Assembly (NCBI RefSeq): GCF_902784195.1 | Contig: NZ_CACZTX010000012.1 | Location: 1-35,960, forward strand | DNA: 35,960 nt | Origin: an uncultured Methanobrevibacter sp. | GTDB taxonomy: Archaea > Methanobacteriota > Methanobacteria > Methanobacteriales > Methanobacteriaceae | Direction of reading: 5' to 3' | In this document: in pieces, positions 21,838-29,353 of the stretch | How the letters are laid out: each line of letters opens with the position of its first letter | Position numbering within the stretch: the stretch's first letter is position 1 | Notes under the pieces: generated by a model | What the model was told of the DNA's origin: nothing | What the model saw: only the letters and a program-made list of their open reading frames with translations | Database searches by the model: none | Program-made: the position numbers and the translations under genes

Positions 21838-22032
21838 ATGAGAAATAATCTAAGAATTTACAGAGCCATTGAGAATATTACCCAAGAGGAATTGGCAAAT
21901 GAATTGGGAGTCAGCAGACAAACCATAGTGGCTATTGAAAATGACAAATACAATCCATCACTTGAACTTGGCTTTAAAATAGCCCATAAGTTTGATGTGA
22001 AAATAGAAGACATATTCATTAGCGAAATATGA
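21838..22032 (+). CDS. Small XRE-family DNA-binding regulator
   Basis: 64 residues, a single Cro/CI helix-turn-helix: RIYRAIENITQEELANELGVSRQTIVAIENDKYNPSLELGFKIAHKFDVKIEDIF. Same size and layout as the minimal YozG-type regulators. SD GAGGGC before ATG 21838. The operator array upstream fits autoregulation and control of the divergent zinc-ribbon gene. No ligand domain, so the signal must come from elsewhere or from oligomer state. Confidence 0.9.
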   Translation: MRNNLRIYRAIENITQEELANELGVSRQTIVAIENDKYNPSLELGFKIAHKFDVKIEDIFISEI

Positions 22033-22124: not shown

Positions 22125-22156
22125 AATGATGAATTCATTTAATCAAAATCATCATT
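22125..22156 (-). terminator. Hairpin spanning the end of the acidic-protein gene
   Basis: AATGATGA (22125-22132) pairs with TCATCATT (22149-22156); the stop codon 22139-22141 is in the loop. Minus-strand TTTCTTTTTACTATTTTTTAC follows. Confidence 0.6.
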
Positions 22157-22849
22157 ATAATCAAATATGCCGAAGTCCATGCCTTTTGAAGAGCTGAAAT
22201 CAATAAGGTGTGCAATGAATTCCTCCAATGAAACTTCCTCATCTTCACTTAAGATATCCTCTTCATCTGGAAATGCTTCTGGAGCCAAAGTGAAACTGAG
22301 GCCTTCTTGATTTTGAGTAAGGATCTTTATAAAATCCACTACAGAAATCTCACGGGATTCATCAGGTTTCATGTCAAAAAGCTCCAATAATGGATTTTCA
22401 TCATTTATTTCAAATTCAAACTCATTAGGGATTTCAACAATATCCCCTTCCAATACAGGCCCATTGATAACCTTTTCAAAATCATTATCATCAATTACAC
22501 CAAACCTTTGATTCTCAATGAATGGATTTTCAAATCTGAGATTGACTTCATCACCACCAGATAAATCCAAATGAACTTCCTCATCTTCAAAAGCACCTAT
22601 CTGTTCATAGAAATGTTGGAACAAAACCATTTCAACTTCATCAACAATGCTTGAGATATTTTTGAAATCTCTCCAGTTTTGGGAGTTAATTACAAATGCA
22701 CAGAAGTCATCAATAGCTGAAATGACAGATTTATATCTGTTCACGTCTCTTTCAGATAATCTGTTGCATTCAATTAAAGTATTTATCCTAGCTGTTTCAC
22801 TTACCAATCTCTTAATCCAAATCAATTGCACTAAACCAAAATCATTCAT
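22139..22849 (-). CDS. Acidic protein of unknown function
   Basis: 236 residues, not recognised. The N-terminal 80 residues are helical and near neutral (WIKRLVSETARINTLIECNRL); the rest is strongly acidic with many Asp/Glu clusters (PDEEDILSEDEEVSLEEF) and almost no Lys/Arg. No signal peptide or membrane helix. SD GAGGTG before ATG 22849. The leader is probably long: the nearest good minus-strand TATA boxes are at about 23221-23245, and the candidate structured RNA and a hairpin lie between them and the gene. The acidic C-terminus could bind a basic partner, but no function is assigned. Confidence 0.75.
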   Translation of the reverse strand: MNDFGLVQLIWIKRLVSETARINTLIECNRLSERDVNRYKSVISAIDDFCAFVINSQNWRDFKNISSIVDEVEMVLFQHFYEQIGAFEDEEVHLDLSGGDEVNLRFENPFIENQRFGVIDDNDFEKVINGPVLEGDIVEIPNEFEFEINDENPLLELFDMKPDESREISVVDFIKILTQNQEGLSFTLAPEAFPDEEDILSEDEEVSLEEFIAHLIDFSSSKGMDFGIFDYNDDFD

Positions 22850-22921
22850 TAAAACACCTCACAGATGAAAATTCATTCGACAACAAAATACGTTAAATAA
22901 GAACAACCCACCCAATTATAA

Positions 22922-22944
22922 AATAGGCCCCCTTGAAACCTATT
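22922..22944 (-). ncRNA. Hairpin with AAGGGGGC loop upstream of the acidic-protein gene
   Basis: AATAGG/CCTATT 6-bp stem with 11-nt loop. The 8-mer GCCCCCTT (plus strand) is repeated exactly in the loop of helix P2 of the candidate RNA at 23120-23127, which is notable in so AT-rich a genome. Confidence 0.35.
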
Positions 22945-23096
22945 AAATAATATCCCAACCAAGTTCTCCCAAAAAATCATCATAACTAAAAAATGCAAAC
23001 AAAATACAAAGGCACAAATGAGTTGATACTATGAACAAACGAAATATAGGAGTGATTTAATATGATGAAACTCTATTATGATGATCTATTGGTGTA

Positions 23097-23209
23097 ATCA
23101 ACCACAATTATAGATTCATGCCCCCTTCATTAAATCTATAATAACTAAATCCAAACATGAAAACACCCTCGTTTTAACATGATTGAAAATTTTAGATTAT
23201 GTGGTTGAT
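23097..23209 (-). ncRNA. Candidate three-helix structured RNA
   Basis: P1: ATCAACCACA (23097-23106) pairs with TGTGGTTGAT (23200-23209), perfect 10 bp. P2: ATTATAGATT/AATCTATAAT (23107-23116, 23133-23142), perfect 10 bp, directly stacked on P1, loop containing CCCCCTT. P3: CATGAAAAC paired with GTTTT..CATG (23156-23164, 23171-23181, two-base bulge), loop ACCCTC. Together they form a closed three-way junction. A minus-strand TATA (CTTTATAT, 23238-23245) predicts a start near 23215, a few nt before P1. No ORF. It could be a free RNA or the 5' leader of the acidic-protein mRNA; no known family was recognised. Confidence 0.45.
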
Positions 23210-23352
23210 ATGGTAACAATTATATAAACTTGGTTGCATATAAAGGTTTTGAATTTATTGAAAAAAATAAAATTAAAGCTAAAAAAAGCACAATAAAATA
23301 AGAAAAAATAGTTAAAAATAAAAAATTAATTAAAATTATAAAAAAAATTTAA

Positions 23353-26222: not shown

Positions 26223-26411
26223 TTATACCCAGCTCATCATTTCTGGGCTTGGAGCTGCGCTAACAGCTAAAATAGATAAAAGTAATACTGTAAGAACTAC
26301 AAATATTACCATGCAATCTTTAAAGTCAATTCTAAGGTTGTGGAAGTTCATAGGATCCATAATACTGGTTTTTCTTCTTAAGTCACAATTATTGTTAGTA
26401 TGTTTTATCAT
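26223..26411 (-). CDS. Small single-span membrane protein, 62 residues
   Basis: Not recognised, but probably real: a near-ideal SD (GAGGTGA, 6 nt before ATG 26411), a good minus-strand TATA (TTTATATATG at about 26482-26491) and a strong hairpin after the stop. Residues 1-32 are hydrophilic and contain Cys9 and Cys33; 33-53 (CMVIFVVLTVLLLSILAVSAA) form one membrane helix, with a short tail APSPEMMSWV. An overlapping plus-strand frame (26176-26430) has no SD or promoter and is a shadow. Function unknown. Confidence 0.65.
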   Translation of the reverse strand: MIKHTNNNCDLRRKTSIMDPMNFHNLRIDFKDCMVIFVVLTVLLLSILAVSAAPSPEMMSWV

Positions 26412-28615: not shown

Positions 28616-29353
28616 TTATTTAGCAATATCAACTAAATTAATCACATTTACATCAGCATTTTCCTTTATCCAAGCAAGCAATCTTTCTGCAAAAATCAGC
28701 TTTTTGGTTTTAACCTCATCTGCAGGACCTGTTGCTCCTTCAATGTTAGGTCTTGAATATTTGGTTACAGTTGTTCCAAAATCCATTCCTGCAAGAATCA
28801 TTTCCTCACATCCTAATGCAAGAGTGAAGAACATTGCCCTATCACCATCAGTAAATCCACCAAAGTTGTATAAATGACCTACAGGTTTGGATTGGGTAGT
28901 TCCAAGAATCTTATCAAAGCTAGTTGTCCACTTCACAATGAGCTCTTCATTGTCTCCATGAGCATGAATAACAAAATAAGAGTCTAATGAATTTGCAGCC
29001 AATAAATCTTCCATTTTACCATCTAAGTCAGTAGCAACAATGTCTGGAACAAGATCATCTTCAAGCATTGCAGTTGTAGCACCATCTGCAGAAACAAGGA
29101 TATAGTCATTCAAGTCATAATTTTCCTTTACATATTTAATATGTTTCTTTATGGAAGGGCCTGCACCAACAACAATGAATTTTGAAGTGTCTTTTTTCTC
29201 CATAATCTCATCAAAGAATTCCTCAATGGTCAAGCAACCTTTCTCATCAAGAATCTTATCCAACAATGCTGCAGTGTTCTCATCCCCTTCCCTTGAAAAA
29301 CCAAGAGTATCAAGAATTTCTTTATACCACCCTTCCCATTCATTAAAATCCAT
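28616..29353 (-). CDS. mptE: 6-hydroxymethyl-7,8-dihydropterin pyrophosphokinase MptE
   Basis: 245 residues, archaeal DUF115 type. Motifs VVGAGPSIKKHI, VSADGATTAML, DIVATDLDGKM, VIHAHGDNEE, FGGFTDGDRAMF and AGMDFG are typical. Transfers pyrophosphate from ATP to hydroxymethyl-dihydropterin, a step to methanopterin (and folate in some archaea), the C1 carrier of methanogenesis. It is 68 bp downstream of surE on the same strand and may be cotranscribed. The region after it (28380-28610) is A-rich on the plus strand, i.e. a U-rich minus-strand terminator. Confidence 0.92.
   Translation of the reverse strand: MDFNEWEGWYKEILDTLGFSREGDENTAALLDKILDEKGCLTIEEFFDEIMEKKDTSKFIVVGAGPSIKKHIKYVKENYDLNDYILVSADGATTAMLEDDLVPDIVATDLDGKMEDLLAANSLDSYFVIHAHGDNEELIVKWTTSFDKILGTTQSKPVGHLYNFGGFTDGDRAMFFTLALGCEEMILAGMDFGTTVTKYSRPNIEGATGPADEVKTKKLIFAERLLAWIKENADVNVINLVDIAK

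Follow-up and report, generated by a model that had tools for sequence, protein, structure and literature searches.

Does the intergenic DNA between mtnP and the gene for an acidic protein in this Methanobrevibacter contig encode a structured RNA and, if so, does that RNA act on its own or as the leader of the gene that follows? An earlier note on the window (the whole 35,960-nt stretch of DNA analysed here) had proposed a minus-strand RNA with a three-way junction and, apart from it, a hairpin sharing one of its loop sequences. The structured minus-strand RNA is borne out by compensatory changes in relatives. The conserved RNA is larger than the note had described: it is about 315 nt long, extends from 23214 to about 22900 on the minus strand and comprises three separate domains (D1, D2 and D3). 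Because matched base changes preserve the folds in relatives from the same genus, the RNA is very probably real, and we are highly confident that a new, genus-restricted, three-domain RNA exists here. It is previously undescribed and would be a new RNA family without an Rfam match.

Architecture of the RNA

The elements of the three domains are as follows.

23097-23209, minus strand: Domain 1, helices P1 and P2 with the G-rich loop AAGGGGGC, and a variable P3 region (23143-23195)
22967-23095, minus strand: Domain 2, a mostly unpaired core enclosed by the long helix P4 (23079-23092/22969-22982)
23037-23057, minus strand: invariant unpaired core of Domain 2, AAUCACUCCU(N)AUUUCGUUU, kept in M. 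ruminantium M1
22900-22967, minus strand: Domain 3, with P5 (22963-22967/22900-22904), G-tracts, P6 (22939-22951/22915-22927) and a G-rich loop
22952-22962, minus strand: 5' G-tracts UUGGUUGGGAU of a candidate quadruplex
22905-22914, minus strand: 3' G-tracts UGGGUGGGUU of the candidate quadruplex

The closing helix P1 (23097-23106/23200-23209) and the second helix P2 (23107-23116/23133-23142) are both perfect 10-bp helices, exactly where the note had placed them. RNAfold folds the minus strand from 23209 to 23097 at -30.5 kcal/mol, whereas shuffled sequences average -17.7 (z -4.2) and not one of 200 reached so low an energy. The note had proposed examining P1, P2 and P3 for compensatory changes. 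They occur in P2, where an A-U pair becomes G-C in three of ten rows, and also in P4 and P5, with P6 staying paired. P1 is largely invariant or has one pair broken: its 5' strand is fixed while the 3' strand drifts and the C9 pair is broken in five of ten, which does not fit selection on P1 simply as a helix. The proposed third helix, P3, is the weak point: the region shrinks or disappears in relatives and a third arm is not conserved. The junction and the hairpin are both real and belong to one RNA, as two domains with a third between them; the reported hairpin at 22922-22944 is the tip of D3 (36-nt hairpin, z -4.2). The 8-mer said to be repeated, GCCCCCTT (AAGGGGGC on the RNA strand), is indeed present in the loops of both D1 and D3 here; among relatives the exact repeat is not conserved and only the G-richness of the loops persists, as AGGGG or AGGAG in most.

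P4 of Domain 2, a long helix that the note had overlooked, pairs CCAAUAGAUCAUCA with UGAUGAUUUUUUGG in the window, CCAACGAAUCACCA with UGGUGAUUCUUUGG in G014 and CCAAUGAUUUACCA with UGGUAAAUCAUUGG in M. ruminantium M1, one bulged base being omitted from the 5' arm in each of the latter two. The core that it encloses is the most conserved unpaired stretch of the RNA and resembles the anti-Shine-Dalgarno sequence of 16S rRNA. Outside the genus the core pattern has a single match (in G035), which lies within a coding region and was set aside. The G-rich loops of D1 and D3 could pair with the CUCCU of D2, a proposal drawn from complementarity, not covariation; in an extra copy of the RNA in G016, CACCUCCUUUG in the D2 core and CAAGGAGG in the D3 loop match over seven bases.

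In Domain 3, P5 reads AGAAC/GUUCU, AGAGC/GCUCU, UGAAC/GUUCA or AUAGA/UCUAU across relatives, and P6 varies in sequence yet remains paired (its 3' arm is CCUAUUUUAUAAU in the window, whereas the extra copy has CUUAUCUA and M1 has AUAUUGGG). Between these two helices, 13 of 14 loci have GG-N(1-2)-GGG on one strand and, on the other, GG(G)-N(1-2)-GGG or the mirror image of it; locus L015 has lost the arrangement, and the four-tract pattern has no match in 187 kb of control loci with both strands counted. Judged from their sequence, the four tracts may stack as an RNA quadruplex. The sole other GG-N-GGG..GGG-N-GGG arrangement of the window is at 29336 on the minus strand.

Covariation and strand

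Compensatory changes are found in P2, P4 and P5. With the helix arms placed by hand for the swap test and the G-U counts, P4 is 97% paired in 12 loci compared with 86% after exchange of entire 3' arms among the loci (0 of 20,000 swaps as high), and P5 is 90% paired compared with 62%, a level not reached in 20,000 swaps. Within the main clade, D3 has a covariation score of 0.311 against 0.156 for shuffled alignments (0 of 500), and P2 and P4 each contain one fully compensated pair with three sequences changed. The sequences are related, so such shuffles overstate the significance somewhat. Over all helices the minus strand gives 16 G-U and 3 A-C cells, which favours it as the RNA strand. Together, the strand and the helices of the RNA are well supported.

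Distribution in Methanobrevibacter

When the 19 genomes of the genus were searched at the DNA level, 11 of them (one partially) proved to contain the stretch that separates mtnP from the acidic ORF, besides low-complexity matches; one relative, 99% identical, is M. olleyae. Two ORF carriers missed by this search, G003 (taken as M. ruminantium M1, with the locus at about 609,610-610,060 of G003:C1) and G014, hold a divergent version of the RNA at the same place, and RNA homologues precede the same acidic ORF in 13 of the 19 genomes, M1 included. The position between mtnP and the acidic ORF is fixed, and G013 has an empty site, where the next conserved gene comes immediately after mtnP. The mtnP protein tree, which is weakly supported, would fit one gain or one loss, so that a single event may explain why RNA and ORF occur together.

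The covariance-model search that the note had suggested recovered homologues in the genus. Models R1, R2 and R3 were built for D1, D2 and D3, and D1 was searched in the genus and D2 and D3 in 151 genomes of the order, where neither gave a convincing copy in other genera. R1 matches 10 genomes (66-101 bits), R2 likewise 10, and R3 every main-clade locus but L015. R2 matches in genus g9 (E 0.0017-0.096) were read as coding or chance once the sequences had been inspected, and R3 matches beyond the genus are at background level (E 0.02-0.4). The covariance-model searches revealed no dispersed copies within genomes; an own-genome DNA search returned 71 matches besides the locus, nearly all of them to the query's first 115 nt, which look like low-complexity AT-rich sequence. 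No viral contig carrying the D1 5' strand was found. In agreement with the note, no known family matches the RNA: Rfam 15, RNase P, SRP, box C/D and riboswitches included, has no match in the window at the gathering threshold, and at E up to 10 gives chance-level matches of 13-16 bits against gathering scores of 37-45, with M1 behaving likewise. A tRNA/tmRNA scan was also negative.

A conserved promoter ahead of the RNA

Two elements lie upstream of the first helix.

23237-23244, minus strand: TATA box TTTATATG of the RNA promoter, centred 31 nt ahead of the first helix
23212-23236, minus strand: imperfect palindrome GCAACCAAG-TTTATATA-ATTGTTAC between the TATA box and the start, in the main clade only and absent in G003 and G014

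The box, CTTTATAT with AAC within a few bases after it, is present in both clades with its centre 29-31 nt before the first helix (29 nt in M. ruminantium M1). A centre 31 nt ahead would place the start about 5 nt before the closing helix, in agreement with the minus-strand TATA box and start point of the note. Position and conservation support its assignment as the RNA's own promoter. The inner TTTATATA, considered as a second TATA box, would begin transcription inside P1, and the outer box is therefore preferred. The palindrome is a possible operator.

The acidic ORF and its neighbours

22139-22849, minus strand: acidic ORF of 236 aa, pI 4.05, always downstream of the RNA

The acidity that the note ascribed to the protein downstream of the RNA is confirmed by this pI, with 57 D+E against 16 K+R. 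Of the genomes searched, 13 of 19 within the genus carry the ORF and none of 120 others in the family does. Its N-terminal half is conserved, and the C-terminal half is variable and was not found in G003 and G014. The protein falls in no Pfam, PHROG or PADLOC family and has one sub-cutoff NCBIfam match; AlphaFold predicts a helical N-terminal region with low overall confidence (pLDDT 56), and the predicted fold has no PDB match at E below 2. Facing the ORF is a Cro/CI-type HTH ORF (21838-22032, plus strand), conserved alongside it in L101 (6461-6658). Elsewhere in the window a small, hydrophobic-ended, unannotated ORF of 62 aa (MIKHTNNNCDLRRKT...; 26223-26411, minus strand) precedes rtcB, and is conserved at the same place in L101 (1974-2162).

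Free RNA or cis-acting leader

The note had left the choice between a free RNA and a cis-acting leader undecided. We consider the best explanation, at slightly better than even chances, to be a free-standing structured ncRNA, about 315 nt long, transcribed from a TATA promoter of its own and folded into domains D1 to D3. Between mtnP and the ORF, G016 (RUG11990) contains two tandem copies of the RNA, of which the upstream one is ORF-less (L017 about 1140-1460, equivalent to G016:C19 25988-26264). Over 335 aligned nt its identity is 67%, and compensatory changes preserve 46 of its 48 helix pairs; the conserved promoter stands ahead of it and T-rich sequence follows. This copy, a single case from one MAG, speaks for a free RNA and against a leader acting purely or simply in cis.

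The principal alternative, which we rate as a serious contender somewhat short of an even chance, is that the RNA forms a long, structured 5' leader and controls the acidic ORF in cis through attenuation, translation control or ligand or protein sensing, with the G016 copy as a duplicated leader. Linkage is complete, the RNA lying upstream on the same strand in 13 of 13 genomes with the ORF, and there is no obvious separate ORF promoter, a ribosome-binding site but no evident TATA box being found directly before the ORF; both observations favour a leader, as do T-runs ahead of the ribosome-binding site in L012, L016 and L017. Against it, no conserved structure hiding the ribosome-binding site was seen among the relatives, the gap separating the end of D2 from the ORF differs by about 250 nt (113 to 361 nt across loci), the ORF-less copy retains its helices at 67% identity, and a single gene is attached, as opposed to the many served by widespread riboswitches. 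The ORF is frameshifted with the RNA intact in G017 and G001, where both assemblies are fragmented, making this evidence weak. The free-standing RNA that we prefer may still be co-transcribed with the acidic ORF. Two divergent genomes have a further common stretch (TTAT.GGATGGTTTTTG) between D3 and the ORF, at about 1275-1500 in L049 and in the matching part of L048, which is possibly a fourth domain.

The remaining explanations fare far worse. An element acting as DNA, such as a MITE, a recombination site or an operator cluster, would suit the tandem copy in G016 and the palindrome near the promoter; the absence of dispersed copies within genomes, the G-U pairing bias and the fixed site between mtnP and the acidic ORF make it improbable. 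A plus-strand product, either an RNA or short peptides encoded downstream of the Shine-Dalgarno-like GGAGTGATT..ATG (about 23048-23065), draws on a plus-strand z-score of -5.7 and on the occurrence of GGAGTGATT about 7 nt ahead of an ATG in some relatives, and is less probable again: the short frames, read by eye, move or are interrupted from one relative to another, the 16-to-3 count of G-U cells points to the minus strand, and the conserved TATA box is that of the minus strand. Chance inverted repeats in AT-rich intergenic DNA, where short palindromes are common, would fit the loss of P3 and are scarcely credible given covariation in several helices (which contradicts them), an architecture kept in two clades and a z-score of -4.2.

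A possible mode of action

A working model can be drawn for the free-standing RNA. Its 5' end would lie at helix P1, as placed by the TATA box. D1 would display a G-rich loop on P1 and P2, D2 would expose the unpaired AAUCACUCCU..AUUUCGUUU core from the long P4 helix, and in D3, P5 and P6 would flank the four G-tracts, possibly stacked as a quadruplex, and present the second G-rich loop. The CUCC core would be the working part, held by pairing with the AGGGG loops and free to pair with purine-rich, Shine-Dalgarno-type sites in mRNA; as for the acidic ORF, it would be either a partner linked genetically to the RNA or a neighbour under regulation. In its fullest form, a new class of archaeal ncRNA that combines a natural RNA quadruplex between two helices with an anti-Shine-Dalgarno-like core gated by its own G-rich loops, and that regulates translation in trans with a linked acidic protein, this model is speculative and we think it unlikely to be right as a whole. 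The RNA itself would offer a candidate for a natural quadruplex-helix module and a potential regulator of translation in the organisms behind rumen methane. Its transcript, structure and function are open to experiment, as it is present in M. ruminantium M1, a rumen methanogen that has been isolated and sequenced.

Comparison with known systems

To our knowledge few structured RNAs are known from methanogens. OLE-type RNAs are functionally uncharacterised, large structured ncRNAs tied to a single protein gene, and the partner of OLE is a membrane protein. The RNA described here is likewise large, multi-domain and conserved and adjoins one gene of unknown function; it differs in being confined to one archaeal genus, in having no Rfam match and in its partner, a small soluble-looking acidic protein as opposed to the membrane protein of OLE. 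With gene-specific 5' leaders and riboswitches it shares an upstream position on the same strand and conservation with one gene, whereas no regulatory switch was seen among the relatives, the spacer is not fixed and an ORF-less copy exists. Spinach-type RNAs are artificial aptamers with a quadruplex between two helices, and D3 has the same order of helix, GG-N-GGG, helix, GGG-N-GGG and helix; D3 is, however, natural and unrelated in sequence, and its quadruplex is a candidate. Methanogen sRNAs such as M. mazei sRNA154/162 reportedly cover ribosome-binding sites. Compared with these, the present RNA is larger and of other sequence and its mRNA pairing is hypothetical, and it resembles them in that its exposed CUCC-type core could pair with Shine-Dalgarno sequences.
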